Virus record (IMG/VR): IMGVR_UViG_3300045999_009387
Location: 1 to 40,158 of that record
Length of the DNA stretch: 40,158 bases
Direction: 5' to 3' (one strand)
Origin: a virus
How positions within the stretch are numbered: position 1 is the stretch's first letter; each line of letters opens with the position of its first letter. Of this stretch, positions 1,376 to 37,170 are shown piece after piece. Below the pieces are notes generated by a model that worked only from the letters and a program-made list of their open reading frames with translations, did no database searches and was not told the origin of the DNA. The position numbers and the translations under genes are program-made.

Positions 1376-1967
1376 TTTTGACGACAGAATTTCTAAAGGA
1401 CTTATTATCCATGAAGATGGAAGTGAGTCATTATTGCCGGGCTATTTTGCACCCGGATATATTCTTCATATCTATCCCGGATCATTTGATCCGTTGCATG
1501 ATGGACATAAAGAAATATTTGATTCAATTAAAACCGATGGCTCTCATGAATATAAATTCTATGAAATTTCTACCAAGCGATTTGGTAAAAACAATTTGTC
1601 TGAATTTGATATTTTAGACAGAGCAAAACAATTTGATTATTACGCGAAACTTTTAGTAACCGATAAGTCTTTATTTATTGATAAATTATCTTTGATTAAA
1701 AGACATAATCCGGGCGTTCAAATTATATTCCATATTGGCGATGATACTTTTGTTAGATTAACACAGCATCACGCTCCAAGAGTATTAGAGAATCTAGATT
1801 GTGGTTTTGTTGTTTATCCGCGTTCTCTAGAAAAACTACAGGAAATGAAATATCTTTGTGATAATAAAGAATGTTTCGGAAATTACTATGCTTCTAATTT
1901 TATGATAAATTTACAAACCAGAAAATACTATCATCTTTCATCGACGAAAATTAGAAATGGACTATAA
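1365..1967 (+). CDS. NMNAT/NadD-like nucleotidylyltransferase
   Basis: This 200-residue protein has the signature of the nucleotidyltransferase alpha/beta phosphodiesterase superfamily: PGSFDPLHDGHKE at residues 38-50, with the (H/T)xGH motif as H45-D-G-H48, and the C-terminal SSTKIRNGL, which matches the ISSTxIR motif of NMN/nicotinate-mononucleotide adenylyltransferases. An internal FHIGDDTFVRL segment fits the substrate-binding strand. The expected reaction is transfer of AMP or CMP from NTP to a mononucleotide; the exact substrate is inferred. The first ~30 residues are extra relative to NadD. The start overlaps the preceding gene by 11 nt. Together with the CinA-like gene it suggests NAD resynthesis or a related nucleotide pathway. 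Confidence 0.75.
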   Translation: MLNDFDDRISKGLIIHEDGSESLLPGYFAPGYILHIYPGSFDPLHDGHKEIFDSIKTDGSHEYKFYEISTKRFGKNNLSEFDILDRAKQFDYYAKLLVTDKSLFIDKLSLIKRHNPGVQIIFHIGDDTFVRLTQHHAPRVLENLDCGFVVYPRSLEKLQEMKYLCDNKECFGNYYASNFMINLQTRKYYHLSSTKIRNGL

Positions 1968-1973
1968 AAATCT

Positions 1974-2056
1974 GCCGCTATGCTCCGAATTGGCAAGGAA
2001 CCGTTTTTGTAAAGCGGGGAAAAAATTCATTACAGGTTCGAGTCCTGTTAGCGGCT
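1974..2056 (+). tRNA. tRNA-Thr (anticodon TGT) with extended variable arm
   Basis: A complete cloverleaf of 83 nt is visible. The acceptor is GCCGCTA (1974-1980) with TAGCGGC (2049-2055), all 7 bp paired. The D arm has a GG in its loop. The anticodon stem CCGTT/AGCGG (2001-2005, 2013-2017) closes the loop TTTGTAA, with anticodon TGT at 2008-2010. The T arm is ACAGG, TTCGAGT, CCTGT (2032-2048). The variable region is 14 nt (2018-2031) and can form a 3-bp GAA/TTC arm, unusual for Thr. G1:C72, C2:G71 and G35/U36 fit threonyl identity. The discriminator is T and CCA is not encoded. It occupies DNA that would otherwise be read as the N-terminus of the RNA ligase. Confidence 0.85.
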
Positions 2057-2061
2057 TTTAT

Positions 2062-3168
2062 ATGAATCCAGCAACAATAGTTAATAATTTTGGTTCCATA
2101 GCAAATCTACTAGCGGAACTAGATCGTCTTGTCAAAGATGGTTACATTTATGAATCCAAAAAGGGTACTTTATCACTCTTTAATTATTCTGACAAATGTA
2201 CCTTTGAAAAAACATGGAATCCAGCCACTCGATTAGCTCGTGGTCTTATTATTGATCGTGAAACTAACACAATCATTTGCTGGCCCATGTCAAAGTTTTT
2301 TAACTATCTAGAAAATCCCAACGACACTATTCCAAACGAGGGTTTTCAAGTACAAGAAAAAGTAGATGGTTCTTGTATATTTTTATGGATGTATCAAGGC
2401 GAATGGTTTTGTTCTACGCGGGGTTCTTTTAATAGCGATCAGGCTATTTGGGCACAAAAATATATTGATAGTATATTACATCAGCTAAATCTTTATGCTG
2501 ACACAACTTATATATTTGAAGCGGTTTATCCCGGCAATAAAATTGTAGTTAATTATGATGGCTATGCTGGTCTATATGCTTTAACCGCCTACCAAAATGG
2601 CATTGAGGTTAGTAAGCAGTTTCTTTGTGAAGCATTTGACTCTGTTAATCATGAGACTGCTGATGATACTATTCGATATCCATTGATTTATTCATATGAC
2701 AATATTGAATCTTTAGTAGAACTATGCAAGACAATTCCTAAAGACGAAGAAGGTTTTGTTGTTCGATGGAATAATGGTTTTCGCCTAAAATTTAAAGGTG
2801 CAGAGTATCTTCGCGTTCATAAATTAATTAGTCACGTTACTCCATTGGGTATTTGGGAACTATTAGTTAATAACGATAATATCGACGCCGTAAAACAACA
2901 ACTACCAGAAGAATTCTGGACTGATTTTGACGGCATAGCCGAAAAACTTAAGTCTAAATTTCAACATATAAAATCTCATAATATTCTTTGGGTTTTAGCT
3001 GAAGAAAAAATGAATAATTTAGATCGAAAAACATTTGCGAAACAAGCTATAGAATCCGCTAAAAAAGATTCTCTTTTAAATACTGCTTTATTATTTAAAA
3101 TATATGATGATAAAGAATTAGACGATATGATTTGGAAAATGATTCGACCCACAGGAAACAAGATTTAA
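2062..3168 (+). CDS. T4 Rnl1-like RNA ligase
   Basis: The protein has 368 residues from the ATG just after the tRNA. The frame stays open to an ATG at 1957, but that extension is the tRNA gene, so 2062 is chosen. Covalent nucleotidyltransferase motifs are in order: RGLIID near 60-65, motif I EKVDGS with the AMP-accepting Lys at about 100, motif III YIFEAVYPGNKIVVNY, motif IV EEGFVVRW, and motif V RLKFKGAEYL. It should seal 3'-OH and 5'-phosphate RNA ends with ATP. In T4 this enzyme repairs anticodon-nicked tRNA, so the adjacent tRNA gene and the nearby P-loop kinase and phosphoesterase genes fit an RNA-repair role (inference). Confidence 0.85.
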   Translation: MNPATIVNNFGSIANLLAELDRLVKDGYIYESKKGTLSLFNYSDKCTFEKTWNPATRLARGLIIDRETNTIICWPMSKFFNYLENPNDTIPNEGFQVQEKVDGSCIFLWMYQGEWFCSTRGSFNSDQAIWAQKYIDSILHQLNLYADTTYIFEAVYPGNKIVVNYDGYAGLYALTAYQNGIEVSKQFLCEAFDSVNHETADDTIRYPLIYSYDNIESLVELCKTIPKDEEGFVVRWNNGFRLKFKGAEYLRVHKLISHVTPLGIWELLVNNDNIDAVKQQLPEEFWTDFDGIAEKLKSKFQHIKSHNILWVLAEEKMNNLDRKTFAKQAIESAKKDSLLNTALLFKIYDDKELDDMIWKMIRPTGNKI

Positions 3169-3200: not shown

Positions 3201-3329
3201 ATGAAAATAGAAATAGTTAGTCTAACTAGTCAGTATAAATACAGTAAAAAAAGTTTTGATCTTGTGTATTATGCCGTCGTAACTCAGACAGAAAAGGATT
3301 GTCCTTTTTTAGAAGGGGAAAGAGTATGA
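3201..3329 (+). CDS. Small hypothetical protein (42 aa)
   Basis: The frame starts at an ATG 5 bases after AGGAAG, a good ribosome-binding site, and ends at a TGA that overlaps the next gene's ATG. The product begins MKIEIVSLTSQYKYSKKS and has no recognisable domain. An in-frame upstream extension to 3132 exists but runs through the end of the RNA ligase gene and lacks a site of its own, so the short version is preferred. Confidence 0.55.
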   Translation: MKIEIVSLTSQYKYSKKSFDLVYYAVVTQTEKDCPFLEGERV

Positions 3330-3902: not shown

Positions 3903-3936
3903 AGAAGATGAAGGCACAAGGTTGCATCATAATTAA
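3880..3936 (+). pseudogene. Probable N-terminal remnant of a T4-type lysozyme gene
   Basis: A short frame of 18 codons reads MSYLENLKEDEGTRLHHN and then stops. The LKEDEGTRL core matches the start of phage GH24 lysozymes, in which the Glu of (D/E)EGxRL is the catalytic acid and is followed by a Y/DTxGxxTIGYGH segment. That continuation is missing: the frame stops exactly where the 3' end of the minus-strand homing endonuclease gene begins (3933). The rest of a lysozyme gene is not found on the other side (4632-4668). A chance 18-codon match cannot be excluded. Confidence 0.45.
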
Positions 3937-4631
3937 AATGAAATAAACTTGTATTTTAAATTTTTAATTTTTGGATTATTGCTAGGATTGTTTATTGATT
4001 TTTTCCATCTTTCTTTAATGAACAAATATTTTTCCTTTTTTCTAGATAAGCTTAAAATTGGATTATTATGATATAATAAATCTAAAAATTTTATTACATT
4101 TTTATATCCAATCATTCTAATAAAAGAATGTTTACTATTAGTATTACTGACATGTTTTGTAATTTTATATTCAATATTATTATTTTTTAAATAAATTTCT
4201 AAAAACTTCCAATCTTGTTCGTAAGGTGCTGAAAAGCTAACGTGGTTACGATCTTTGTCTATACAACCATCTGCATCAAGCAATCCTAATAAAAAATATT
4301 TTTTTAAATCATCGCTTAATTCATAAAAAATTGTACAATCGCTTGATTTAGTAGTATAATTATATTTTTCTAAAAATTTTTTAAATTTTATATCAGATGT
4401 TCTTATTGTTGTTTGGGGTTGACGGTTTTTTCTTGTCCTTTCATAAAACGTCCATCTTCCTATTTTTTTTAATATTTTGATAATTTGATGTGCATCTTTT
4501 GAAACAATCTCTATTCTGATTTCATTTAATTTTTTAACTACATGTCCGTCGCCCCAAATAAAACCTAAACTATAGGCAAATTCTGGAGTAAGGTCTATAT
4601 TTATATTTTCTTGATAAGTGTATTTCCTCAT
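3933..4631 (-). CDS. LAGLIDADG homing endonuclease
   Basis: This 232-residue protein has two LAGLIDADG motifs: EFAYSLGFIWGDGHV at about 17-31 and YFLLGLLDADGCID at about 112-125. Each carries the acidic residue that binds metal at the active site, so it is a single-chain, two-motif enzyme. It would cut a long target site and promote its own spread. It lies on the strand opposite to its neighbours, is strongly AT-rich, and has its own AGTGTATAAT box 5 nt before the ATG, all signs of a mobile free-standing gene. It abuts a truncated lysozyme-like frame. No group I intron core or intein junction was seen around it. Confidence 0.85.
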   Translation of the reverse strand: MRKYTYQENINIDLTPEFAYSLGFIWGDGHVVKKLNEIRIEIVSKDAHQIIKILKKIGRWTFYERTRKNRQPQTTIRTSDIKFKKFLEKYNYTTKSSDCTIFYELSDDLKKYFLLGLLDADGCIDKDRNHVSFSAPYEQDWKFLEIYLKNNNIEYKITKHVSNTNSKHSFIRMIGYKNVIKFLDLLYHNNPILSLSRKKEKYLFIKERWKKSINNPSNNPKIKNLKYKFISF

Positions 4632-4636
4632 ACAAC

Positions 4637-4646
4637 ATTATACACT
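4637..4646 (-). promoter_or_regulatory. AGTGTATAAT promoter box of the homing endonuclease
   Basis: On the minus strand AGTGTATAAT ends 5 nt before the ATG at 4631. The same ten bases at the same distance precede the genes at 6692 and 19357. The spacing would place transcription start at or next to the A of the ATG, giving a leaderless mRNA. No consensus -35 hexamer is evident. Confidence 0.55.
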
Positions 4647-6049: not shown

Positions 6050-6207
6050 TGGACGAATTTAAAAAACATTTCTTTGAAAGATTTGTAAGATCAGGATGTC
6101 CCTGTTGTCAAGGGCCGGGTACACAAAAATCCTATAAAAAGAAAACTCGTAAGATAACAAGAAAGAGATTGAAAAACGCCGATGAGAAACAAACCAAATC
6201 AATATGA
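6049..6207 (+). CDS. Small basic CPCC protein (52 aa)
   Basis: The ATG overlaps the TAA of the gene before (TAATG) and the frame ends inside the nucleotidase gene. The product is very basic in its second half (KKKTRKITRKRLK) and has a GCPCCQGPG motif at 16-24, a half zinc-knuckle. This suggests nucleic-acid binding, although two Cys pairs would be needed for a full site, so dimerisation or another partner would be required. It overlaps the next gene by 26 nt. Confidence 0.5.
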   Translation: MDEFKKHFFERFVRSGCPCCQGPGTQKSYKKKTRKITRKRLKNADEKQTKSI

Positions 6208-6685
6208 TCCACGCGGATATGTTAAAGATAAACTAACTATCTATCTGGACATGGACGGTGTTCTGAGCGATTTTCAAGGACACTTAAATAATTATAATAA
6301 GTCTTTGGGATTAAAAATAACTCCATATCAAATCAATCTAGTGGATTATCACTGGTGGTCGTCTATGCCTTGGACACGATGGGGCAGAGAATTGTATGAC
6401 TATTGCAATAGTCTGTGCTATACATGCATTCTAACTTCTGCGGGTGGACATCCAGAAGCCTCAAAAGGTAAAACAATCTGGCTAGAAAAAGAAGGAATAA
6501 AGGACTATATTCTTTCTGGATCAAAATGGGCGGTAGCAAACGATAAAACTGTCCTTATTGACGACACTCCTAAGAAAATAGATAAATTTATTTTGGCCGG
6601 GGGTGTGGGTTTATTATTTAGTGAAGAAAAGCTAGAAGGTATTTATAAAGCCGTAAAAGAATGGGTAGATTTGCATAGTGTATAA
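6182..6685 (+). CDS. HAD-family 5'(3')-deoxyribonucleotidase-like phosphatase
   Basis: This 167-residue protein has HAD motif I DMDGVLSDF, with nucleophile D23 and general acid/base D25. Motif II lies in CILTSAGGH. A lysine follows in GSKWAVANDKTVLIDD, which also supplies the motif IV acidic pair. Size and motif I match the NT5C family, which dephosphorylates dNMPs. In a phage this can adjust nucleotide pools or remove host nucleotides. It overlaps the CPCC gene upstream. The gene downstream has its own promoter box, lying at the end of this one. Confidence 0.75.
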   Translation: MRNKPNQYDPRGYVKDKLTIYLDMDGVLSDFQGHLNNYNKSLGLKITPYQINLVDYHWWSSMPWTRWGRELYDYCNSLCYTCILTSAGGHPEASKGKTIWLEKEGIKDYILSGSKWAVANDKTVLIDDTPKKIDKFILAGGVGLLFSEEKLEGIYKAVKEWVDLHSV

Positions 6686-6686
6686 T
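6677..6686 (+). promoter_or_regulatory. AGTGTATAAT promoter box before the 6692 gene
   Basis: The box overlaps the last codons of the HAD gene. Five bases (TATGC) separate it from the ATG at 6692. Its sequence and spacing are the same as at 4637-4646 (minus strand) and 19342-19351. There is no ribosome-binding sequence between box and ATG, consistent with a leaderless transcript. Confidence 0.55.
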
Positions 6687-6691
6687 TATGC

Positions 6692-7570
6692 ATGAACAAA
6701 ATAATATTTGATAATCTTTCTTACCGTGAAGGCAAACCATCGGCTGAACAATTAGGCTTTATTCCTCTCAATTTTTGTAATAGAGGTTTTTATGGACTAA
6801 TTAATGGTAATATATCTTATGATTTTCCGCCAAATCCTAATGATATTAATGCTACGTTAAGCACTTTAAGACAAGATCAAGATATTTATTTTGATTTAGA
6901 GCCTTGGTTTTGTTTACCGGACACCGCTTCTAGAGTTGAACAATTAAAAAAGAAAATGTATGCTCTAGATTTGCTTTCTAGATTCAGACAAATTCATCCA
7001 AATTTTAATAAAAAAATTGGCTGTTTTGGATTACCGGATGGAAATATACATCCCGAAAATCCTCCTGCTGCAATAGAATTTTGGAAAAACAAAAATCGTA
7101 AATTAATGAGTGGTGAAATTTGGGATATTATTTACGATACCATGAATTGTATGTTTCCGTGTTGTTATCCGTATGATTACGGAAACGGAGATTCAAAAAA
7201 GACCAACGATCTTCAGTTAGTTTACAATCAATTAAAACTTGATATAACTAAAGAACATAATGTTAAAAATTATCCGGTTTATGTTTTTTGGCAACCGAGA
7301 TTAAAAAAGGCTGATGGTTCTAGACCTTTTATGACTTATCAAGATACGGTACTCCAATTAAATTGGTTAATGTCTCGTTGTGATGGTATTGTATTGTGGG
7401 ATTGGGATGGTCAAATAGACCCGCAGACAGGAGATATAGCTGTGTGGGATGATGGTGCCGATTGGTTAAGGGCCGTAAAAGATGTTCAAAAAACATTTAA
7501 TACGCCACCAAAAGTACAAACCATGCATTATACAAGCGGTACTCCTTTTAAAACCCGTTTTTCAGGTTAA
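6692..7570 (+). CDS. Putative TIM-barrel, glycosidase-like protein
   Basis: The protein has 292 residues and no signal peptide. Features fit an alpha/beta barrel: IYFDLEPWF near residue 70 (an acidic pair at a strand end, as in glycoside hydrolases), IGCFGLPDG, a YPVYVFWQPR strand near 200, and CDGIVLWDWDGQ near 230, followed by DDGADWLRAV. The strand-end D/E residues and a late W-D-W recall hyaluronidase-like or GH-type barrels. I cannot assign a substrate. It could act in cell-wall or surface polysaccharide degradation. It has its own promoter box, so it may be expressed at a different time from its neighbours. Confidence 0.4.
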   Translation: MNKIIFDNLSYREGKPSAEQLGFIPLNFCNRGFYGLINGNISYDFPPNPNDINATLSTLRQDQDIYFDLEPWFCLPDTASRVEQLKKKMYALDLLSRFRQIHPNFNKKIGCFGLPDGNIHPENPPAAIEFWKNKNRKLMSGEIWDIIYDTMNCMFPCCYPYDYGNGDSKKTNDLQLVYNQLKLDITKEHNVKNYPVYVFWQPRLKKADGSRPFMTYQDTVLQLNWLMSRCDGIVLWDWDGQIDPQTGDIAVWDDGADWLRAVKDVQKTFNTPPKVQTMHYTSGTPFKTRFSG

Positions 7571-7584
7571 AAAAGATAAAATCT

Positions 7585-7594
7585 AAGATAGAAT
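7585..7594 (+). promoter_or_regulatory. Promoter-like box AAGATAGAAT before the RlaP-type gene
   Basis: A -10-like TAGAAT ends exactly 5 nt before the ATG at 7600, the same spacing as the AGTGTATAAT boxes elsewhere. The sequence is a weaker match. There is no ribosome-binding sequence before the ATG. Confidence 0.4.
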
Positions 7595-9190: not shown

Positions 9191-9214
9191 TACTCTCTGT
9201 GTAATACGAGAGTA
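9191..9214 (+). repeat. Perfect inverted repeat before the nrd genes
   Basis: TACTCTC (9191-9197) and GAGAGTA (9208-9214) are perfectly complementary around a 10-nt loop. A TATAAT (9213-9218) overlaps the right arm, and the nrdB ATG is at 9242. It could be an operator covering the -10 element or a stem-loop in the 5' leader. It lacks a T-run, so an intrinsic terminator is unlikely. Confidence 0.5.
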
Positions 9215-9241
9215 TAATATTTACTACTATTGAAGAAAATT

Positions 9242-12780: not shown

Positions 12781-12789
12781 AGATATAAT
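12781..12789 (+). promoter_or_regulatory. Promoter-like AGATATAAT, 5 nt before the 12795 start
   Basis: TATAAT at 12784-12789 ends 5 nt before the ATG at 12795, the same spacing as the AGTGTATAAT boxes. The intergenic gap is 29 nt and contains no ribosome-binding sequence, again fitting a leaderless transcript. Confidence 0.45.
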
Positions 12790-13589: not shown

Positions 13590-13843
13590 TAAATAAATTC
13601 CACTGTTGTATTATACACACCGCTTAAACTTGCGTTATCATAAGTGCCCAACAAATTAATATTTCCAAAAACACCATCTATGTTAATTGCGTCTATTTGA
13701 CCGTTTAATGTATTATCAGCGTTAACACCATTTAGGTTGATAATATTAATTATTGGTGGAGCTATTACGGTTGTAGAAAATAACTGCCAATATCTTATAG
13801 GCCAATAATTTATAGGAAAGTAGTTTTTTGGAAAACTAATCAT
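13589..13843 (-). CDS. Small tail-associated hypothetical protein (84 aa)
   Basis: It overlaps both neighbours by one nucleotide in the minus-strand tail cluster. The N-terminus is aromatic (FPKNYFPINYWPIRYWQLF). The rest alternates polar residues in IxLxGxY-type turns (INLNGVNADNTLNG, INIDGVFGNINLLGTY), like a short beta-repeat. No family is known to me; it probably belongs to the fibre or baseplate. Confidence 0.5.
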   Translation of the reverse strand: MISFPKNYFPINYWPIRYWQLFSTTVIAPPIINIINLNGVNADNTLNGQIDAINIDGVFGNINLLGTYDNASLSGVYNTTVEFI

Positions 13844-14640: not shown

Positions 14641-15666
14641 TTATCCACCAAAATAGTTATATCTTTCAAATGTTGGGGTTAAAATTATGGGGGTTATTCC
14701 AAAACAATCTTTGCCGTTTTGTGAATAAGTCCAAGTAGGAGGTGATCCAGCCGTATTTCTATTTACACCGCTACACGTTCCCGTGATTTTTTCTCTTTCA
14801 TTTAATCCTACAAAGTCTCTGACAACTCTAGTATAGTTACCGGTAGTTAAAGGTCTAATAGTTGCGATATATCTTTTATTCGCTGATAATTGAACAGGAT
14901 TAAATTCAATTATAGTTATTCCTTGTGTACTAGCTAAATTCTGTAAGCCTCCATTAATTAATCCTGATGCAATCAAATTTTGACCCGTAGAACTTATTTT
15001 TTCATATAAACATAATCCAACATCGCTGTTGTTATTAAGAAGACGTAAAGACGCTTTAAGTCCAATACACGAACAATTAAATTCTTGTAACCACTCCATT
15101 CCATATTCATTTGGATTTGATGTAGAGCTTGTATTTGCTGTTGTCGAACGAGATAGAGCAAATGTATTTTCTAAAATTGATCCGTCATTAAATTTTACTG
15201 AAACTACCGGGGCACCGTTTAGTTTTGACCATGTAGAACCTGCCGATGATAATGCATATGGTAATCTAGTTAAATTATAAACGCCAATAATTGTATTTAA
15301 TGTTGCCTGTGCCCCGCCGCTTGCTCTTGTAATATATAAGGAACATCCGCTATTTGGTAACAAGGTTTGTGGTTGTTGTAGAGGTATCCATTGCCAACCG
15401 GTTACAGCAGCAAACGTATTAGTAATAGCACCGGTAGATAATATAGAACCGCTATTAGGAGTATAATTAGTTGGATTTATATTACACAAAGTAGCCCGTA
15501 AAAATGGTGTACCTACAACCGCCGAAACGTTTAAACCAACGTGAGTTACGGTTCTACCTATTTGTTCACGCCACATCAAACCGACGTTATTTGCACCAGT
15601 AACAGCGTTAGTTGATAAAGCACCAGCACTTTCCCAATCTATATTGAATAAATTATATGTTCCCAT
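14641..15666 (-). CDS. Tail protein with two tandem beta-sandwich modules
   Basis: The protein has 341 residues. Its two halves resemble each other: an N-terminal NVGLMWREQIGRTVTHVGL followed by TPFLRATLCNI, and a second copy near 180 with EYGMEWLQEFNCSCIGL followed by VGLCLYEKI. Each has a (V/Y)G(L/M)xW turn, then a GL strand, then a LxLC-type strand. This suggests an internal duplication of a carbohydrate- or receptor-binding module. It overlaps the large fibre gene by one nucleotide. Function is inferred from position in the fibre cluster. Confidence 0.55.
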   Translation of the reverse strand: MGTYNLFNIDWESAGALSTNAVTGANNVGLMWREQIGRTVTHVGLNVSAVVGTPFLRATLCNINPTNYTPNSGSILSTGAITNTFAAVTGWQWIPLQQPQTLLPNSGCSLYITRASGGAQATLNTIIGVYNLTRLPYALSSAGSTWSKLNGAPVVSVKFNDGSILENTFALSRSTTANTSSTSNPNEYGMEWLQEFNCSCIGLKASLRLLNNNSDVGLCLYEKISSTGQNLIASGLINGGLQNLASTQGITIIEFNPVQLSANKRYIATIRPLTTGNYTRVVRDFVGLNEREKITGTCSGVNRNTAGSPPTWTYSQNGKDCFGITPIILTPTFERYNYFGG

Positions 15667-18600
15667 TAATTATTTTCCAGTGTCAAATGTATATTCAAAT
15701 TATTAATACCGCTCACATTAACCACATTGAATCTTAATAAATCTCCAGCCGCCAATCCCGTAGTCCAGTTAGAGATAGATTGATTATTATAGTTTTGATT
15801 TGACAAAGTTATTAAAGAATTATTTAATATGCTACTAAAAGTAGGATAAGAAACCGAATTAGATTTTTGTAAATCAACTTGGATAGTGCCCGTCGCAGAG
15901 GAAAAGATATCGCATTTATTTATAATAGATGCTGAGGCTATTCTGGAGAAACCTTTTGATCCAGTTGCTATTGGATAGCCCTCTATATTAATACCAAAAT
16001 TATATTCATTTTTTCTAAAATATGGATTAATACCATCGGTGAATAAGAATCTTCCAGATGTTTGAGTAGGTAATAAATTATTTAAAGCTTGACCGGCTGT
16101 TGAAGCATTTGTACCGCCTCTAGATATTGATAAAATCCCGGTAGTATTGTTGATGTTTAAATTAGATTCAATTACCAGTCCAGAAATGGCATTTGAAGCA
16201 TCATTATAATATAATTGTAAATTGTTACTATTATTTAGTATAGAACCAATAGCATCTTGTGCTTGTTCATCTGTATATGATCCGCCGCCACTTGATGATA
16301 CGGTAGTCCAAGAAGTAATACCGAAGCCATCTGTACTAAGAACTTGACCATTAGAACCATTGCTGGTTGGAAGCTGGAAAGTTACATCAGATGATAATGA
16401 TCCTACTTGAACAGAAACAAAGTTTGTGTATGCGGAATTATACATCCGCAATGGTACTGTTTGTCGGACTTGTTGAAAAATACCGTCATTATTTAAAAGC
16501 ATCCATGCGGGGTTAGTGCCGCCGTGCTTCCACACACCGAAGTAAGGCTGATCGGTTCCATAGCCGGGAAAAGTACTAGGGTCCGACTGTTGAACTACTA
16601 AACCGTTAACATGGACCGAAAGACCCGGAGTTATTATATTTCTACTATCGCTTCCCGGTGATGTTGAAATATATTGAGTATGAGGGTCGCCAACAGTTAA
16701 ATTTTGCAAAGAATTATGGTTTATGCCTGTTGGTTGAACATTGATTCTTAATATACCGTTTGCACCGCTATCTGTAAAATTAATACCTGTACCAGCAGTT
16801 AGGACTCTTTCATTAGCTAGAGACGAATCGGTTGATAAAGTTAAGTAAGTTGATCCGGTTGGTGCAAATGTACCAGCAGCAACAGAAACCCAACTTAATT
16901 GACCACCAGCACCGAATTGAAGCACTTGTCCTACTAGTCCGGTAGTTGTAGGTAATTTGAGATTATAACTTAGAGGTATACTTGTTGGAGACGATAAAGA
17001 AACATAATTTGATCCTGCAGAATTAAAAAATCTTATTTCATTATTACTAAATATTTCAAAAGGTGAATAAATTCTAATCTTATCCGGTGTTTCATCTAAA
17101 GTAGTGATTCTAAAGACAGGATCACCATTAGCTTTATCAAAAGAAATAAAAGTGCCCGAACCAAATACGGGACTGTCTTGATGACATCCTTGTATTATTA
17201 AAGCTGTTTCAATATCAAAATCTGGTTTTATAAAATTTCTACCAGTCGTTGATGGTGTCTTATGAAGATATTGAGTGTGAGAATCGCTACTTAAATTTAA
17301 AAGTAAAGAGTGATTTATTCCTGTCGATTGAACATGAATAACAAAATTATTATTAGCACCGTTATCTACAAAATTAATACCAGAACCAGCGGTTAGAATA
17401 CGCTCATTAGTTAAATTAGAATCGCTACTTATAAGTACATACGAAGCACCAGTTGGAGCGTATGCGGGTAATGTATTAGAAGTTATAGAAGTGATTAATC
17501 CTTTATTATTTACGGTTAGTGTTGGATAAGAATATACTCCTGTTGTAGAATTTACTATAGCTAACGTAGTACCGATAGAAGTAGTACCGGTTCCTGTAAT
17601 ATCGCCGGTTAAATTGATTAATTGATCGCCGGTATTATTACCGGAAAGATTTATTCCAGAGATAAAACCTAAAGAATTAATTGATTGAGGCGTAATATTT
17701 CCTAAACCAAGTCTTAATACAGGAATACTTGATGAATTAAAAACATCTCCAAAAATACCGCTTTGATTATTAAATACAAAATTAGTTAAAGTTCCGCTAC
17801 TCTTAGAATTTAATTGAGTTTGTACATTAGAAGTTAATGTTGATAAGAAATCAAATTTAGTATTATCTACAGTACCTAATCCAATTTTTGTAGTATTAAT
17901 ACCGGTTGGAATTAAATAATCGGCAAGTCCAGATATATTAATGTACCAATTTGTATTAACACCAGACAACTGAATACCGTTGCCCGCTCTTAAAGTACCA
18001 GTTATTTCGTTTCTTACTCTAGATGCTTGATAATAGAGATTTGTACCTTCAGGTAAATCTGAAGTACTTCTTGTCCCAAGCCATGTTAAGCCTCTGGCAT
18101 CATTATGGTATTGTGTGTGAGGATCACCAGCGGTTAAATTCAACAATAAGTTGTGATTAATACCTGTAGGCTGAACTTGAATAGTAAATGTACTATTTGC
18201 TCCACCGTCAATAAAATTAATTCCTGATCCGCCAGTAATAGCTCTTTCGGCACCTAAAGAAGAATCGTTTCCTATGGTGATATATGAAGCTCCGGTAGGT
18301 GCATATACTATTGATGATGCACCATTAGATGCGGCGGTAATTAAACCTTTAGAGTTAACGGTTATATTAGCGTTTGTAAAAGAGCCAATATTACTGTTTA
18401 CATTTGCTAAAGTTGTAGTTATAGAAGTATTACCCGTTCCTGAAATGTCTCCAGAAAGATTTATTAGTTGGTCGCCTGTATTATTTCCTGTTAAATTTAT
18501 TCCAGAAATATGTTGACTGGCAACTATAGAAATAGGAACTATTCGTTGTAAACCAATTTCAACTACAGGAGTCGAGGTTGGATTTGTCACATTTACAACA

Positions 18601-19310
18601 ATTCCGCTAGTATTAACAAAATTAATATTTGTTACGGTGCCGGTAGTCGGTATATTATTAGTTGCTGATAAAATTCTTCCTTTATTATCTATAGATAGAG
18701 TTGGATAAGAATAAACACCTGAAGAAACTCCGGTATTAATCAAAGAGACATTAATATTTGTTATACCAGTTCCTATTATGTCACCAGTAACAGTTATTAA
18801 TTGATTTTGAGATAATTTGTTATTTAATTGATTTTGTATAGAAGATGTAACACCATCTAGATAGCTAAATTCAGTATCATTGACCGTTCCGTTTCCAATT
18901 AAAGATGCTGAATACCCTGTAGGCAAAAGGTTGTTAAGACCAGAAATAGAAAATTGCAATGAATTATTTAAAACATTAAAATTTATACCATTTCCGGATA
19001 TAAATTTACCAGTAAGCCAAGGATTTACAGCATCGTATACTCCGGTAGTAAAATTAACTATTTGACCGGTCGTATGAGTATGATTTAATAAAGCAAAATC
19101 ATTACTTGTTAATCCATTTAAATAATTACTATTTAATCCAGAAATTAAAATACCGTATCCATCACCTGCGATAGAAAAAGGAATTAGTCCAGAAAAAGTA
19201 TGGTTTGCAGTTATTAATCTTGGATTAGATAAATGCAAATATTGTAAATGATCGTCATTATTAAGACCAAAAACAAAAGAATGATATATATTAGGATACT
19301 TAGGATTCAC
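15666..19310 (-). CDS. Large repetitive tail fibre protein (1214 aa)
   Basis: The protein starts at GTG. The N-terminus includes NNDDHLQYLHLSNPR, the D-H-x-Q-Y/x-R type motif seen in trimeric tail fibres. The body has three copies of a module that opens with APTG(A/S)xY, runs through TGINHxLLxNL and ends in a DPHTQY-type turn (DNA about 18109-18307, 17262-17465 and 16670-16870). Copies of a GDIxGTG and SxNxGVYSYPTL module alternate with them. The rest is Ser/Thr/Asn/Gly-rich beta fibre. It should form an elongated trimeric fibre for receptor contact. The C-terminus shows no obvious chaperone motif. A promoter box AGTGTATAGA lies 5 nt before the GTG. Confidence 0.8.
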   Translation of the reverse strand: MNPKYPNIYHSFVFGLNNDDHLQYLHLSNPRLITANHTFSGLIPFSIAGDGYGILISGLNSNYLNGLTSNDFALLNHTHTTGQIVNFTTGVYDAVNPWLTGKFISGNGINFNVLNNSLQFSISGLNNLLPTGYSASLIGNGTVNDTEFSYLDGVTSSIQNQLNNKLSQNQLITVTGDIIGTGITNINVSLINTGVSSGVYSYPTLSIDNKGRILSATNNIPTTGTVTNINFVNTSGIVVNVTNPTSTPVVEIGLQRIVPISIVASQHISGINLTGNNTGDQLINLSGDISGTGNTSITTTLANVNSNIGSFTNANITVNSKGLITAASNGASSIVYAPTGASYITIGNDSSLGAERAITGGSGINFIDGGANSTFTIQVQPTGINHNLLLNLTAGDPHTQYHNDARGLTWLGTRSTSDLPEGTNLYYQASRVRNEITGTLRAGNGIQLSGVNTNWYINISGLADYLIPTGINTTKIGLGTVDNTKFDFLSTLTSNVQTQLNSKSSGTLTNFVFNNQSGIFGDVFNSSSIPVLRLGLGNITPQSINSLGFISGINLSGNNTGDQLINLTGDITGTGTTSIGTTLAIVNSTTGVYSYPTLTVNNKGLITSITSNTLPAYAPTGASYVLISSDSNLTNERILTAGSGINFVDNGANNNFVIHVQSTGINHSLLLNLSSDSHTQYLHKTPSTTGRNFIKPDFDIETALIIQGCHQDSPVFGSGTFISFDKANGDPVFRITTLDETPDKIRIYSPFEIFSNNEIRFFNSAGSNYVSLSSPTSIPLSYNLKLPTTTGLVGQVLQFGAGGQLSWVSVAAGTFAPTGSTYLTLSTDSSLANERVLTAGTGINFTDSGANGILRINVQPTGINHNSLQNLTVGDPHTQYISTSPGSDSRNIITPGLSVHVNGLVVQQSDPSTFPGYGTDQPYFGVWKHGGTNPAWMLLNNDGIFQQVRQTVPLRMYNSAYTNFVSVQVGSLSSDVTFQLPTSNGSNGQVLSTDGFGITSWTTVSSSGGGSYTDEQAQDAIGSILNNSNNLQLYYNDASNAISGLVIESNLNINNTTGILSISRGGTNASTAGQALNNLLPTQTSGRFLFTDGINPYFRKNEYNFGINIEGYPIATGSKGFSRIASASIINKCDIFSSATGTIQVDLQKSNSVSYPTFSSILNNSLITLSNQNYNNQSISNWTTGLAAGDLLRFNVVNVSGINNLNIHLTLENN
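16670..18307 (-). repeat. Three diverged copies of a ~65-residue fibre module
   Basis: The module APTGxxY...SGINFxDxGAN...TGINHxLLxNL...HTQY occurs at about 18109-18307, 17262-17465 and 16670-16870, roughly 800 and 600 bases apart. Protein identity is high in the motif positions. The DNA copies are diverged, so recombination between them is possible but not shown. Confidence 0.7.
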
Positions 19311-19315
19311 AATAA

Positions 19316-19325
19316 TCTATACACT
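19316..19325 (-). promoter_or_regulatory. AGTGTATAGA box of the large tail fibre gene
   Basis: On the minus strand AGTGTATAGA ends 5 nt before the GTG start at 19310. It faces AGTGTATAAT on the plus strand; together they form an 8-bp inverted repeat (TATACACT at 19318-19325, AGTGTATA at 19342-19349). The two divergent genes share this 46-nt control region. Confidence 0.5.
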
Positions 19326-19341
19326 TGGGGACTTTTTAAAG

Positions 19342-19351
19342 AGTGTATAAT
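19342..19351 (+). promoter_or_regulatory. AGTGTATAAT promoter box of the lipoprotein gene
   Basis: The box ends 5 nt (TTTAT) before the ATG at 19357, as at 6677-6686 and the homing endonuclease. Its upstream half is the mirror of the fibre-gene box. No Shine-Dalgarno sequence lies before the ATG. Confidence 0.55.
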
Positions 19352-19356
19352 TTTAT

Positions 19357-20040
19357 ATGAGATTTTTTATTCTTTTGTTTTTAAGTTCTTTAATTTTAAT
19401 CGGTTGTAATTCTTCTTTCACTGATGGTGGAAATACGGTTTTTTCTAAAATAACTGAAGAAAGTTTAGCGGATGGTGGAACTAAGAAAACATCAATTAGT
19501 GTGGCTGTACAGCAACCAGAGGCACCAAAAGATGGTGCAGTAATTTCATTTAAAGATAAACCAGATGGAACTGTAGATGTTTCAACTTCGACAGGGCAAT
19601 CACAAGATATTAGTAATATTCAGGCGGCGGTAGCTAAAATAGGTATGTTACATCCATTAGTATGGGCTGGTGCGGCTTTATGTGTTTTAGGAGTATTAGC
19701 TGCCGCAATAGCTGGACAATATAAGTGGGGTGCTGGTCTATTTATTGGTGGTTTAGCTATGGCTTTAGGTGCTGCTATAATTGCAGAATATGCTGTATAC
19801 TTTGGGATAATAGGAATTATAGTAGTAATTTGGTTGCTATATGTTTTATGGGATAATAAAGTAAATAAAAAAGGATTTATTGAAAATACTAAAGTTATAG
19901 AAAGAATTAAGAAAGAATTACCAGACGATAAGAAAGAACAACTATTTAATGAAAAATCAGGCGATGTAGCATTAATTCAAAGCTCATCGACTAAAAATCT
20001 GGTTAAGAATACAAGAAATAAACTATTCTCTAAAAGATGA
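19357..20040 (+). CDS. Membrane lipoprotein with three hydrophobic segments
   Basis: This 227-residue protein begins MRFFILLFLSSLILIGCNSS, a lipoprotein signal with LIGC cleavage before Cys17. A polar, Thr/Asp-rich stretch follows. Then come about three hydrophobic segments between residues 110 and 170 (VWAGAALCVLGVLAAAIAG, GAGLFIGGLAMALGAAII, IIGIIVVIWLLYVLW), and a basic tail ending KNTRNKLFSKR. It is membrane-anchored. It could act in lysis, superinfection exclusion or host takeover; the sequence does not decide. It is the first gene of the + strand replication run and has its own leaderless-type promoter. Confidence 0.6.
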   Translation: MRFFILLFLSSLILIGCNSSFTDGGNTVFSKITEESLADGGTKKTSISVAVQQPEAPKDGAVISFKDKPDGTVDVSTSTGQSQDISNIQAAVAKIGMLHPLVWAGAALCVLGVLAAAIAGQYKWGAGLFIGGLAMALGAAIIAEYAVYFGIIGIIVVIWLLYVLWDNKVNKKGFIENTKVIERIKKELPDDKKEQLFNEKSGDVALIQSSSTKNLVKNTRNKLFSKR

Positions 20041-26932: not shown

Positions 26933-27635
26933 AATAATAATTATTAGTGGTAAAAAACAATCAGGTAAAAGTTCCGCTAGAGGATTTTTAACATCTGAAT
27001 TATCAAAAGGTTACGGAGTAGACGGGACTTATACGGAATGGTATAATCCAACAGTCGTACATTATTCTTTTGCAGATGAATTAAAAAGAATCGCGGTCAA
27101 TTTATTTGGACTAAAAGAAAAATGGGTATTTGGAACAAACGAAGAGAAAGAAGAAGAAACTCATATTAAATGGAGCGATCTTCCATTTGTGGGTTATAGC
27201 CTTCATGATTTAAAACAGGAATTATGGACCGTAAATGGTGTTTATAAAAACCATCAACGATCTTATTTAACTGGACGAGAATTTCTAAAGATATTCGGAA
27301 CATACATTTGTCGTAAAATATATCCTGATTGTTGGGTTTTGTCCACAATTAATAATATCAAAAAAAATAAGCAGGATTACGTCATAATAGACGATGCTCG
27401 TTTTCCAAACGAAATCAGTTTATTATACAATGAATTTAAAGAAAACTGTATCGTTATTAGATTACAAAGAAACACTTTTCATGATTCTGATATTACAGAA
27501 ACGGCTTTAGATAATTTTGATTTTAACGCGATTAACTCAATTATTATAGACAATCAAAGTCTTTCAATAGACGAAAAAAATCAAATCTTACTACAAAAAA
27601 TAAAGGAAAACAATATTTATGCTTTCATGGCTTGA
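26922..27635 (+). CDS. Deoxynucleoside monophosphate kinase (T4 gp1-like)
   Basis: The protein has 237 residues. It begins with IIIISGKKQSGKSSARGF, a P-loop at 10-18. A substrate-binding YSFADELKRIAVNLFGL segment, the FLKIFGTYICRKIYPDCWV helix and the VIIDDARFPNE strand are in the order seen in phage dNMP kinases. It phosphorylates dNMPs (classically dGMP, dTMP and hydroxymethyl-dCMP) to dNDPs. The actual substrate range is inferred. It overlaps the primase gene by 11 nt and the IMPDH gene by 17 nt. Confidence 0.8.
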   Translation: MTSKIIIISGKKQSGKSSARGFLTSELSKGYGVDGTYTEWYNPTVVHYSFADELKRIAVNLFGLKEKWVFGTNEEKEEETHIKWSDLPFVGYSLHDLKQELWTVNGVYKNHQRSYLTGREFLKIFGTYICRKIYPDCWVLSTINNIKKNKQDYVIIDDARFPNEISLLYNEFKENCIVIRLQRNTFHDSDITETALDNFDFNAINSIIIDNQSLSIDEKNQILLQKIKENNIYAFMA

Positions 27636-28680
27636 AGAAACTTATTCTTTTGATGATGTTTTACTTGTACCTAATTTCTCTAATATAAAATCAAGACGAG
27701 ATTCGTCATTAAATTTATCTACTAATATTGGAAATATCAAACTTGATATTCCTATTATATCAGCAAATATGGATTCTGTTACTGAAATTAATATGGCAAA
27801 ATCTATGAGAGAATGTAGGGGTCTTGGAATATTTCATAGATTTTATAAAAGTAAAGATAAATATCAAGCTCAAATAAAAGAATACCAAATAATTACTAAA
27901 GAATTACCATTCTTAAGTATTGGTATAAAAACCCAACAAACCGAAATAGACGAAATATCAAATCTACTAAATTCCGATAAATTAAATTTATGTTTAGATA
28001 TTGCTAATGCCGACAATTTTCATGTGCATGAATACATTAAAGAATTACTAAAGAATAATAAAAATATCAATTTAATTGTTGGAAATATATGCACCGGAGA
28101 TGCCGCGTTAAGATTATTTGATCTTGGTGTTATTAATTTTAAATGTGGAATAGGTCCGGGTGCAGCTTGTACAACAAGAATTATGACCGGATGCGGAGTA
28201 CCTCAAATATCGGCAATTGCAAATATTAAAAAGGCTCTATGTACTAGAGATTTATGCAATCAAAATAAATATCATATTATAGCCGATGGTGGTATTAAAA
28301 ATTCAGGAGATATAGTCAAAGCCTTAGCTGTTGGTGCAAATAGTGTTATGATAGGAAAAATACTAGCATCCTGTGATGAATCGCCTTCTTCGATTATTCA
28401 TTCAAATGGTCATAACTATAAAGAATACAGAGGCCAGTCGTCTTACGAATTTCAAAAAGATAATAATATTTATAGATGTGATATCACGCCAGAAGGCGAA
28501 AGTTTCTTAATAGATTCTAGCGGTCCTGTAAAATCTACACTAGACCTTTTAGTGGGTGGTATTAAGTCGGGCATGTCTTATCTCGGAGTCAATAATATAA
28601 CAGAATTATATGAACAATCTAAATTTGTAAAAATTAGTCAGGCTGGATTAAATGAATCGAAACCTCATGGCAAAAACTAA
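27619..28680 (+). CDS. IMP dehydrogenase/GMP reductase family, CBS-less
   Basis: The protein has 353 residues. Family motifs include [29 protein letters not shown], and the catalytic loop [11 protein letters not shown] with Cys184 as nucleophile. [21 protein letters not shown] and YRGQSS follow. The C-terminus ([26 protein letters not shown]) reads like IMP dehydrogenase (ESHPH) more than GMP reductase. The CBS regulatory domains are absent, so the allosteric nucleotide control of cellular enzymes should be missing. It would raise GMP supply for replication. It overlaps both neighbours. Confidence 0.8.
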
Positions 28681-30735: not shown

Positions 30736-30911
30736 GTATAATAGAATATTTAGATTCTGAACTATCATTACTAGATAAAACTATAGAGATATTAAATAAA
30801 AAACGCGACACTCTAACAAGTTATAAGAATAGTATCATGAAAGATGATAAGAAGCAAAAGACAGTTAAGGTCGATTGGTCGCCTGCCGATAACGAAAACT
30901 TAAAATCATGA
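30732..30911 (+). CDS. Small coiled-coil protein (59 aa)
   Basis: The gene is bounded by ATGA overlaps on both sides: its ATG is on the stop of the nuclease gene, and its stop is on the ATG of the polymerase gene. The product MSIIEYLDSELSLLDKTIEI is a helix rich in heptad leucines and isoleucines, followed by a basic KDDKKQKTVKVDW tail. It may dimerise. It could help the polymerase N-half; this is inference. Confidence 0.5.
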   Translation: MSIIEYLDSELSLLDKTIEILNKKRDTLTSYKNSIMKDDKKQKTVKVDWSPADNENLKS

Positions 30912-32575
30912 TTAATCTTTTTTACACTCATTATTCTATACAACAGGCATTTTGTCATATTGATGAAATGATTGACAAATTGTATGAATATAAAATTCCA
31001 GCTTTTATCATTGCTGATATCAATTCTGTATCTGGATGCCCTGAAATAATACAGTTGATTTTAAAAAGAAATAAAAAATCAGAACATAAAGTTCTACCAA
31101 TTTTAGGTTTTACGTCTTTTTACAACAAAAACAAGATACATATTTTAGCTAAAAATAAAGATGGATGGTTTAAGCTAGTACAAACTATTTCATCATTAAA
31201 CTCTAAAGAACACTATGAAAAATATAAAAGTTCTGATATCTTTGATGAGGACTTAGAAAAAATTAAACAAGAAAAAGATTTATTGGTCGAATTGTCGGAT
31301 AATAATAAATTTAAAGAAATCTATTATCTTGACGAAAAAGATCGAGTTTTCCAGCAAATTATTATCTGTAGTAAATTAAAAACGAATATAGATAACCAAC
31401 AAGAAATCATCAAAAATTACCCCGAATACAAGAAATTTTTTGACGGTACAAACAATTATTTTGAAAACAACGTAAAATCCATCAATAATAACGACACTAA
31501 ATTCATAGAACAATTTGAATTCTATGACATCGCTATGCCTTCGAGATTACCTATATTTAAAGATGATCAAAATAAAGCCGTAAATCCAAATGACTATCTT
31601 ACATCTCTTTGTAGAAAAGGGTGGACAGAAAGAAATCTAAATGTAAGATTAAAAGACAATCCAGAACTAAAATCAGTTTATGTAGAACGAATTAAAGAAG
31701 AACTAGAAACCTTAAACAAATACAATATTTCTAACTATGTTTTACTAGTAAGAGATTTTACAAATTATGCCAAAGAAAATAATGCTAGAGTTGGATTAAG
31801 AGGATCGGCGGTTGGCAGTTTGGTATTCTATTTAATCGGCGTTACAAATATTGATCCAGTATGGCCCGATCCTACAATACCATACGATCCAGACAAATCT
31901 TTACTCTTTTCGCGTTTTATTAACAAAGGACGTTTGGCGGAAGGTAAAAACGCTTTACCAGACGTAGATATAGATATTCCTATTGCTTTTAGAAACAAAC
32001 TAAAAGAATATATTTACAAAAAATACGGGAAAGAAAATACCGCCCATATTGCAGCCTTTGGTAAAATTAAAGCAAAAATGGCTATCAAAGAGGTTTTCCG
32101 TATTTATGATAAATCTTTTGATCTAGCCAACGAAATTACTCAAAATATGATTGACGAAGCAAAGGTTCAAGACGAACTAGAAGATTTAAAACAAGTTGAT
32201 CCAAAATATAACATTATTAATTACAATGTTGACTATATAGAAAACATTAATAAATATTATCAAGAAAATAAAAACGAATTCGATAAAGCAATCCGCCTTA
32301 ATAATACAATTAGAAATTTTAGTCAACACGCGGCTGGATTGGTCTTGGCCGACATCCCTTTGAAAGATTTTTTGCCAATTTACTACGATCCCGAAAAAGA
32401 TTCAGAGATAGTTGCACTAAAAATGCAGGACGTAGAATACTGCGGTGCCGTAAAATACGATTTGCTGTCTGTTGCAGCATATTCTAAAATAGATGAAATT
32501 TGTAAAATGGTGGAAATGAATTTAAGTGAGCCTGAGATTATAGAATACGAAACAGAGGAATCAAATGATATATAA
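30908..32575 (+). CDS. DNA polymerase III alpha, N-terminal half (PHP-like and palm)
   Basis: The protein has 555 residues. The first ~270 form a degenerate PHP domain (THYSIQQAF, FIIADINSVSG, VLPILGF). GLRGSAVGSLVFYL is near 295. The palm active site is PDVDIDI, with catalytic D352 and D354; FSQHAAGLVLAD follows, and the third Asp is in VKYDLL near 518. The frame ends soon after, before the IPLDD-type linker that starts the fingers. That linker and the rest are in a second gene at 34536. It contains all palm catalytic Asp residues but no fingers, so it cannot act alone. Confidence 0.85.
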   Translation: MINLFYTHYSIQQAFCHIDEMIDKLYEYKIPAFIIADINSVSGCPEIIQLILKRNKKSEHKVLPILGFTSFYNKNKIHILAKNKDGWFKLVQTISSLNSKEHYEKYKSSDIFDEDLEKIKQEKDLLVELSDNNKFKEIYYLDEKDRVFQQIIICSKLKTNIDNQQEIIKNYPEYKKFFDGTNNYFENNVKSINNNDTKFIEQFEFYDIAMPSRLPIFKDDQNKAVNPNDYLTSLCRKGWTERNLNVRLKDNPELKSVYVERIKEELETLNKYNISNYVLLVRDFTNYAKENNARVGLRGSAVGSLVFYLIGVTNIDPVWPDPTIPYDPDKSLLFSRFINKGRLAEGKNALPDVDIDIPIAFRNKLKEYIYKKYGKENTAHIAAFGKIKAKMAIKEVFRIYDKSFDLANEITQNMIDEAKVQDELEDLKQVDPKYNIINYNVDYIENINKYYQENKNEFDKAIRLNNTIRNFSQHAAGLVLADIPLKDFLPIYYDPEKDSEIVALKMQDVEYCGAVKYDLLSVAAYSKIDEICKMVEMNLSEPEIIEYETEESNDI

Positions 32576-32876: not shown

Positions 32877-33373
32877 AAAAATTAACAGGCATAACGTTTT
32901 TAGGAAAACGACCAAAAGATTTGATCCAAGAATATGGGGATGACGCTTTAACCAAAGTGGAGCATCATCTTGAAAAAATCTTATTGGAAAACAAGAATAT
33001 ACAGGTATTTACATCTTTATCATACGGTATCGAATTCATTGTTGGTAAATTATGTAATCGACACAATATACCATATCATGTGTTTTTAACGTTTAATGAT
33101 CAAGAAAAAATTTGGCCCAAATCATCGCAAGAAGAATATCAAAACCTACTTTTATCAGCCAAATCAGTAAATCAAGTAGAAAACGGCGAATGGTCTTTAG
33201 ATAAACTTAAAAAGAAAGATTCTATTCTTATAGAACAAAGCGATATAGTATATTATCTATTAGATAAGTTATACTTTAAAAAAGACAATAATAAAAAATA
33301 TATAAAAATTGAACTAAATACAGCAACTAAAGATACCGCCTCTAACGAAGAAAATGAGGAGATTTTGTTTTGA
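32873..33373 (+). CDS. Second SLOG/YpsA-like protein
   Basis: This 166-residue protein begins LTGITFLGKRPKDL, the G-(F/H)-x-G-x-RP-x-x-L start seen in YpsA-like proteins. It continues VFTSLSYGIEFIVGKLC and PYHVFLTFNDQEKIW in the usual SLOG order, with an acidic C-terminal tail. It probably binds a nucleotide. The other copy (28667) is diverged and lies 4 kb away. The gene overlaps its neighbours by 4 nt each. Confidence 0.55.
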   Translation: MKKLTGITFLGKRPKDLIQEYGDDALTKVEHHLEKILLENKNIQVFTSLSYGIEFIVGKLCNRHNIPYHVFLTFNDQEKIWPKSSQEEYQNLLLSAKSVNQVENGEWSLDKLKKKDSILIEQSDIVYYLLDKLYFKKDNNKKYIKIELNTATKDTASNEENEEILF

Positions 33374-36080: not shown

Positions 36081-36544
36081 ACCTACAAAAAAAGATACTT
36101 TATGATTTTGATTATTATCCTAAATACACTTATATAAATGATAATCAAATTACATTAGAATTGCCTAATAATTTTTATCAGTTTATTGTTAAAGATAATA
36201 ATGTATTATTTTCTTACATGAAAGATAAAGAAAATAAAAAATTCTTTATAGAAGCTGATAATAACAGTAAACGATCAATAATTGATCTTCAAGTAAGAAA
36301 CATACTAACTCTTCATAATTTTCCTTATGAATTTATGACTTGTAAAAATGACGATGTTCTATGCAAAGAGGTTTATGCGGGTAAAATACAAAATAAAAAG
36401 AAAGAAAAAGATGTTTTTGAGGCGTATCTAAATACGCTTGCTTTTGGTGTTACACCAGAAATAATAGACAAAATAAAAGAAAAAGATTTACTAAAAAGCT
36501 ATTCTTTTATACTTCATGCTTACTTAGGAATAAAAATATGTTAG
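36077..36544 (+). CDS. Hypothetical protein (155 aa)
   Basis: The ATG at 36077 overlaps the polymerase stop (ATGA); an in-frame ATG at 36050 is less likely because it lies inside the polymerase gene. The protein has a repeated Asn/Lys-rich, beta-strand character (NNFYQFIVKDNNVLFSYM) and a helix at its end. It is unrecognised. It overlaps the sigma-like gene by 7 nt. Confidence 0.5.
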   Translation: MNLQKKILYDFDYYPKYTYINDNQITLELPNNFYQFIVKDNNVLFSYMKDKENKKFFIEADNNSKRSIIDLQVRNILTLHNFPYEFMTCKNDDVLCKEVYAGKIQNKKKEKDVFEAYLNTLAFGVTPEIIDKIKEKDLLKSYSFILHAYLGIKIC

Positions 36545-37170
36545 AAACAGAAATTGACTCTCTATTACGGACAAAAGAATTCTTAGCTAAAAATTCAGCA
36601 AAAAAATACGCAAGACTTTTTGGTAAAAGACATTATAAAGATTTCTTACAAGAAGCAAGGATTCTTTTATATCACGGAATTAAAGAATTTATAAAGTCAG
36701 AAAAAAAAGACAAAGACAAAACTATGGACAGCTATTTGTCCAAAATTATTAAAAATGGGTTGAGCAAAATTGCGTTAAAGTATAATTCTGATTTTAAAGT
36801 TTCGGTATCTACTAGAGAACAAGTCAACAGGATTAATAAACTAATCAAAGAAGGATATTTAATTTCTGATATATCAAAGAAACTTCAGATTTCCGTAAAA
36901 AGAATAAATAGACTTATTAAGTATAATTTTAATTTTTATAGACCTTCCGATAAATCAGCAGTAAATATCTGTCAAGATCAAAAGGTTAATTACAACAATC
37001 GAATGTTTGAAATCTTGGACGGATTAAATGATTTAGACAAAGAAATCTTTACAAAAATTTGCGAAAACAAAACTATATCTGATATAGTTTCAGAAACCGG
37101 CCTGCAAAGATATTTAGTAAGAGATCGACTATTGGTAATTAATGACAGAATTAAACAGAATACTTTATGA
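36538..37170 (+). CDS. Sigma-70-like RNA polymerase sigma factor
   Basis: The 210-residue protein has an N-terminal helix set with HYKDFLQEARILLYHGIKEF, resembling sigma region 2 (DLxQEGxIAL). A middle helix LIKEGYLISDISKKLQISVKRINRLI could be a helix-turn-helix, and the C-terminus (TISDIVSETGLQRYLVRDRLLVIND) is in the position of region 4. This suggests a phage sigma factor that redirects host RNA polymerase. It could read the AGTGTATAAT boxes described elsewhere; that link is inference. The start overlaps the preceding gene. Confidence 0.6.
   Translation: MLETEIDSLLRTKEFLAKNSAKKYARLFGKRHYKDFLQEARILLYHGIKEFIKSEKKDKDKTMDSYLSKIIKNGLSKIALKYNSDFKVSVSTREQVNRINKLIKEGYLISDISKKLQISVKRINRLIKYNFNFYRPSDKSAVNICQDQKVNYNNRMFEILDGLNDLDKEIFTKICENKTISDIVSETGLQRYLVRDRLLVINDRIKQNTL

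Follow-up and report, generated by a model that had tools for sequence, protein, structure and literature searches.

A start-codon-proximal promoter box in an uncultured phage and its putative role in leaderless messages

How close to a gene can a promoter sit, and what becomes of the message when nothing is left between the two? The question is raised by a box built around TATAAT that stands exactly 5 nt before several start codons of a 40,158-base virus record, a fragment of a phage that we analyzed at its full length and refer to as the window. A preliminary description of this DNA took the box for a -10 element, saw no shared -35, and argued that so close a spacing leaves no room for a leader, so that mRNAs should begin at the initiation codon itself. 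In this paper, we ask what kind of box this is, where its messages might begin, and what might read it. Our answer, to which as a whole we give a probability of roughly 0.7, is that the box is a lineage-specific promoter with the start codon at +1, giving leaderless mRNAs and read by a phage sigma factor.

A box at a fixed distance from start codons

The copies of the box are collected in Table 1. Every position given for them in the preliminary description, including the 5-nt spacing, proved correct, and the copies absent from it are marked as new. The window contains three exact copies of AGTGTATAAT, all of them 5 nt from an ATG; the boxes at 19316 and 19342 are divergent and 16 bp apart; and an SD-like (Shine–Dalgarno-like) GGGGAAAGAG lies between the candidate leadered copy at 3263 and its ATG. 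The boxed genes had been described as those not overlapped by an upstream gene; the box at 6677 departs from this, for the TAA of its TATAAT is itself the stop codon of the upstream ORF.

Table 1. Box copies, boxed genes and candidate sigma factor, in positions of the 40,158-nt window
Feature	Position	Strand	Remarks
Box AGTGTATAAT	6677..6686	+	5 nt before ATG 6692; overlaps stop of ORF 6182-6685
Box AGTGTATAAT	19342..19351	+	5 nt before ATG 19357; first promoter of long replication-gene run
Box AGTGTATAAT	4637..4646	-	5 nt before ATG 4631 (LAGLIDADG homing endonuclease)
Box AGTGTATAGA	19316..19325	-	5 nt before GTG 19310 (fibre-like gene)
Weaker box GGTGGATAAA	14640..14649	-	5 nt before ATG 14634; new
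AGATATAAT, without GTG	12781..12789	+	5 nt before ATG 12795 (pyrimidine-dimer glycosylase)
AAGATAGAAT, weak	7585..7594	+	5 nt before ATG 7600 (nucleotidyltransferase)
TGTGTATAAT, candidate copy with short leader	13610..13619	-	20 nt before ATG 13589; new
TGTGTATTAT, candidate leadered copy	3263..3272	+	53 nt before ATG 3326; new
LAGLIDADG homing endonuclease, boxed	3933..4631	-	
292-aa protein, boxed	6692..7570	+	without family match
1214-aa virion structural (fibre-like) protein, boxed	15666..19310	-	
Predicted lipoprotein, boxed	19357..20040	+	lipobox LIGC, read by eye
Phage RNA polymerase sigma factor, candidate reader of box	36538..37170	+	region-2 and region-4 folds

How special is the spacing? 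TATAAT stands exactly 5 nt before 4 of the 59 gene starts in the window, against 0.077 expected, and at no other spacing from 0 to 29 nt does it precede more than one of them; with GTGTATAAT as the template and at least 7 of 9 positions matching, five genes carry it at spacing 5 and never more than two at any other spacing from 0 to 60 nt. The 5-nt spacing is enriched across the 40-kb window. A scan of the window for the box with two mismatches was not above chance (94 vs. 91), so the significance lies in the exact box together with its spacing; a position weight matrix built from loose matches (112 sites) was rejected as too noisy, with shuffles scoring equally and only spacing plus score being informative. 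A bias toward this spacing is possible, in that the TAA of a TATAAT at 5 nt is in frame, 9 nt ahead of the start, and thereby favors the choice of that start as the “first start codon.” The window has no peak at spacings 2 and 8, which share this property. The 5-nt rule holds at only four to five sites in 40 kb, and this small number counts against our reading.

The box in related phages

The window encodes ribonucleotide reductase (RNR), a UvsX-like recombinase, a DnaB-like helicase, primase, exonucleases, glycosyltransferases, RNA ligase and, in two ORFs, a DNA polymerase. Its best-placed matches among deposited phages share only about 24% identity in DnaB, and no cultured relative of this phage or of its clade was found here. 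A polymerase search led to four contigs, among them one of 142 kb, that keep the window’s gene order at about 30–50% identity, and an alignment of DnaB (568 candidates, 80 kept) led to a clade of uncultured phages with the replication gene order of the window, whose loci have in common UvsX, DnaB, primase, exonucleases, both polymerase parts and a glycosyltransferase. A search for close relatives through the 19357 protein and UvsX returned only an identical contig (100% from 14947 onward), useless for footprinting; because no close relative is known, footprinting of the window boxes themselves is not possible. Relatives gathered through RNR (80 loci) were dropped for synteny, having little in common beyond the RNR genes, which have probably been transferred horizontally.

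Some other features of the window deserve a record. Its DnaE-type polymerase is split (30908-32575 and 34536-36080), with an exonuclease gene (33370-34008) and others in between, an order that recurs in relatives (e.g., L087, where the first half is interrupted further, by about 1.4 kb). The RNA ligase ORF (1957-3168) takes in a tRNA-Thr (1974-2056) at its called start, and its real start is probably ATG 2061. A perfect inverted repeat, TACTCTC...GAGAGTA (9191-9218), lies over a TATAAT 23 nt before the ATG of the RNR small subunit (9242) and is a possible operator, and ORF 27619-28680 resembles, by eye, IMP dehydrogenase (GuaB).

Does the box belong to the lineage or to this one fragment? We counted k-mers upstream of genes in genome stretches from ten relatives (0.97 Mb, genes called by a simple script), unseeded and with the window left out. 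GTGTATAAT is the top enriched 9-mer (13 sense, 0 antisense, 0.65 expected), and GTGTAT is the most enriched 6-mer after Shine–Dalgarno words; in a larger set (1.7 Mb, 823 non-redundant genes), GTGTATAAT occurs 17 times in sense and twice in antisense, with 1.0 expected. None of its 27 single-base variants exceeds four occurrences in the larger set, so GTG is as indispensable as TATAAT. The -10 element of the preliminary description thus stands as a promoter and falls as a plain -10, the box being the whole of GTGTATAAT. An excess of GTGTATAAT 3 nt before xTG in the relatives was set aside because most of it is coding, coming from a protein gene with a conserved VYNIM motif.

For 41 good copies, aligned by seeding on GTGTAT, only the columns outside the seed are informative. 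Among these, T is found at offset 13 in 28 of 41 (p 1.5e-6) and a purine at offset 14 in 33 of 41 (p 6e-5), the fifth and sixth bases after TATAAT; G or T precedes the box, with A/T-rich bases before that; and between -45 and -15 relative to the box no column is conserved. The T–purine signature, which was found post hoc, is likely to mark a transcription start, T at -1 and purine at +1. The purine falls where, in the window, the first base of the start codon lies, so messages there should begin with AUG or GUG. It is chiefly from this match of the relatives’ signature to the window’s spacing that we infer leaderlessness, and the proposal that the window’s messages start at the initiation codon is to that extent supported.

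The -35 is missing, as the preliminary description had it: besides the lack of any conserved upstream column, the mean best TTGACA match of the box is 3.1, the background further upstream being 3.0. A match of at least 5/6 to TTGACA accompanies 3 of 48 boxes vs. 9 of 52 other TATAATs in the relatives’ genomes, which on this account are probably host-type promoters. Sense-strand enrichment upstream of clade genes, the missing -35 and the T–purine 5 nt downstream together bear out the claim of a phage promoter.

The distance from box to gene is bimodal in the relatives, with six copies at 4 to 7 nt and most at 29–45 nt; it is exactly 5 nt in 4 of the 41 aligned copies. In the long-distance group, 41 of 42 have an SD match of at least 4/6, a share that genes in general nearly reach. 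Five related records retain one copy, GTGTATTATACATTATG, at a distance of exactly 5 nt (one control match in all 47). The replication module alone, across the clade loci, has no 5-nt peak because it is a long run of overlapping genes; whole genomes are needed for this. “Leaderless,” then, describes a placement in the window phage and not a promoter class, the relatives’ boxes mostly driving leadered genes.

Similar boxes turn up outside the clade. A scan of viral contigs for AGTGTATAATN5ATGA returned at least 119 stretches; among those listed, 69 are at ORFs of at least 60 aa (control of ATGA plus in-frame TAA, 109 of 369). We rejected them as the same class, some having TTGACA and being other promoters of similar arrangement. 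One 168-kb virus record (L131, G051) carries 17 copies of GTGTATAAT, all on one strand; several follow a TGACAC and have leaders of about 25 nt. Because of this TGACAC, and because it lacks a clade DnaB, it too was rejected and apparently represents a different, sigma-70-like promoter family. In many viral contigs (L091, L095, L109, L118, L121, L122, L124, L125, L127 and L130), a gene of ~284 aa starting MSK has GTGTATAAT exactly 5 nt before its ATG, some with TTGACA upstream, an arrangement that reads as a conserved leaderless-type start in other phages.

Boxed genes, a candidate reader and rival readings

Are the gene starts behind the boxes to be believed? We find them credible, because the 19357 protein begins with what by eye is a lipoprotein signal (MRFFILLFLSSLILIGC, ending in LIGC), the match of the 12795 protein to the Pyr_excise profile begins at residue 1, and a search for alternative in-frame starts within 80 codons in the boxed ORFs 3933, 6692 and 13843 found none. 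The ORF upstream of the 6692 gene ends 6 nt before it, and translational coupling from that ORF, which could be conceived of here, counts against the leaderless reading.

In the relatives, three of the boxed genes have weak matches, one each to a portal, a head protease and a major head protein (E 0.002–0.005), and further ones encode RNR, a HAD phosphatase and a DUF1501 protein. The boxed genes look late or mixed in timing; the head-gene matches, at E-values of only 0.002–0.005, suggest lateness, and a strictly late class is a poor fit because the box at 19342 heads replication genes. The DUF1501 gene (E 1.7e-82) stands behind a GTGTATATT box in the relative G018 (L342:16634-17923); DUF1501 proteins are typical of Planctomycetota, which is a possible host hint.

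What, then, reads the box? ORF 36538-37170 has a match to the phage sigma-factor PHROG (E 8e-8), and among PDB entries its family profile picks out bacterial sigma factors (E 5e-18). A predicted model of the protein (mean pLDDT 76, pTM 0.45) has a region-2 domain in residues 1–83 (Z 12.2, 1.7 Å over 77 residues) and a region-4 domain in residues 148–209 (Z 10.5, 2.0 Å over 62 residues). The gene has dnaE on one side and a glycosyltransferase gene on the other, an arrangement shared with the relative G001. No match to this sigma was found by tblastn in the phage collection, nor by single-sequence search in four relatives; the family profile does find sigma genes in those four. Sigma genes occur in 10 of the 15 clade genomes searched and are of two types, one with regions 2 and 4 and the other, like the window’s, beside the polymerase gene, and at least one genome (G014) has both. 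The reader is most likely a phage-encoded sigma factor directing host RNA polymerase, because two kinds of sigma are encoded, a -35 is lacking, and the box differs from the extended -10 of sigma-70. Two things count against this assignment: the predicted region-4 fold of the window’s sigma is unlike a factor that ignores -35 sites, and the clade has a second sigma type.

Put together, the scheme would run as follows. The box would be the core of a lineage-specific promoter with the consensus (T/A)GGTGTATAATA, used without a -35 in a clade of large uncultured phages, and transcription would start at the purine 5 nt behind TATAAT (to judge from the relatives’ T–purine), which places TGTATAAT at -13 to -6. 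Most relatives would have a leader of roughly 25–40 nt from the start point to the gene; in the window phage, the box would be so placed that +1 falls on the start codon’s first base, and at least four genes (homing endonuclease, 292-aa protein, fibre and lipoprotein) would be leaderless and initiate without a Shine–Dalgarno site. A phage sigma with host RNA polymerase would read the box, probably at late times. One may go further and imagine that a single sigma switches on both the transcription of a gene set and its SD-independent, leaderless translation, that the relatives have kept their leaders, and that one promoter class has shifted from leadered to leaderless, perhaps to keep translating under a host initiation shutdown; we offer this as speculation that is probably wrong in its full extent.

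What else might the box be? It could be an ordinary host sigma-70 -10, used by the main RNA polymerase of a leaderless-tolerant host, with nothing phage-specific about it, and leaderless genes are tolerated by Actinobacteria, Deinococcus and Chloroflexi. TATAAT is, after all, the sigma-70 -10, and unrelated phages, those of our RNR loci among them, have sigma-70-type TATAATs 5–6 nt before ATG, often along with a TTGACA-like -35. A clade-type DnaB lies on two contigs of a MAG of the SAR202 cluster (Chloroflexota; L385 and L386, 64 and 152 kb), a possible host or a binned phage, and -10-only leaderless genes are widespread in bacteria (PMC3160421, PMC12340547). We nevertheless hold this reading to be unlikely, for GTG is required just as TATAAT is and differs from the sigma-70 extended -10 (TGn), the box lacks the -35 that other TATAATs of the same genomes more often have, it recurs in many different phages of the clade, and no GTGTAT stands upstream of genes at the two SAR202-MAG loci.

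Less probable by far is an operator or other DNA-binding site in place of a promoter core. Some copies do form part of an imperfect inverted repeat, the divergent pair (19316-19351) giving one of TATACACT/AGTGTATA and the copy at 6677 having palindrome-like flanks, GCATA...TATGC, but the relatives have single boxes, nearly always sense to the downstream gene (13 to 0), and an operator has no need of a start-site signature at a fixed distance. Could it all be chance, an AT-rich genome in which the in-frame TAA of TATAAT makes starts 5 nt downstream look special? The two-mismatch scan and the in-frame TAA at spacing 5 might encourage the thought, which we find scarcely believable in view of the four exact TATAATs at that spacing against an expectation well below one, the absence of a peak at the spacings of the same frame property, and an independent enrichment in the clade.

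If the promoter reading is right, a clade for which no cultured member was found here gains a promoter consensus with which transcription units and gene starts can be called, along with a candidate sigma–promoter pair that is testable in vitro. Gene finders that require an SD may misplace such starts. Because the same promoter appears leadered in the relatives and fused to start codons in the window, why phages abandon a leader becomes a question testable by comparison.

Comparison with known promoters

Our literature search found no paper joining GTGTATAAT with phage and promoter. Late transcription in T4 uses gp55 with gp33 and the clamp gp45. The T4 late promoter, TATAAATA at -13 to -6, is read by the phage sigma gp55 (PMC1524935), and homing endonuclease genes can have T4-type late promoters (PMC2988022). 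Like T4, the window phage has one -10-like element without a -35 and encodes its own sigma, and a +1 at the conserved purine (offset 14) would put the element at -13 to -6 as well. It differs in that the box is not TATAAATA but GTGTATAAT, with each position required; the candidate sigma has region-2 and region-4 folds and is not assigned as gp55; neither gp33 nor the clamp was seen within the window’s 40 kb; and the start codon would lie on +1.

In the Kayvirus Staphylococcus phage vB_SauM-515A1, the late promoter is a long -10 box, TGTTATATTA, without a -35, from which transcription starts 6 bp after the box, before morphogenesis genes, and which is attributed to a phage sigma (PMC7698491). 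Here, the -35 is likewise missing, and a purine as the sixth base after the box and a sigma gene (the candidate reader) would fit the same arrangement; the comparison is one of promoter features. The box does not have the sequence TGTTATATTA, and leaderless transcripts are not reported in PMC7698491. We file the box under neither the T4 nor the Kayvirus type because its sequence differs from both, although the geometry appears the same.

There remain the leaderless genes led by a TA-type -10 beside the ORF, common in several bacterial phyla (PMC3160421, PMC12340547); phage transcripts, too, have been described as often leaderless (PMC5312081). The resemblance lies in a TATAAT some 11 nt ahead of the start codon and the lack of an SD (PMC3160421, PMC12340547): four genes of the window have TANNNT about 10–12 nt before the start and no SD, and their upstream regions hold only the box (SD scores 2–4 of 6). 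Those systems, however, are host genes under the primary sigma, whereas the box is GTG-extended, specific to a phage clade and, in most of its copies, leadered. What is new is a promoter consensus for a clade of uncultured phages, one member of which has the promoter fused to start codons.
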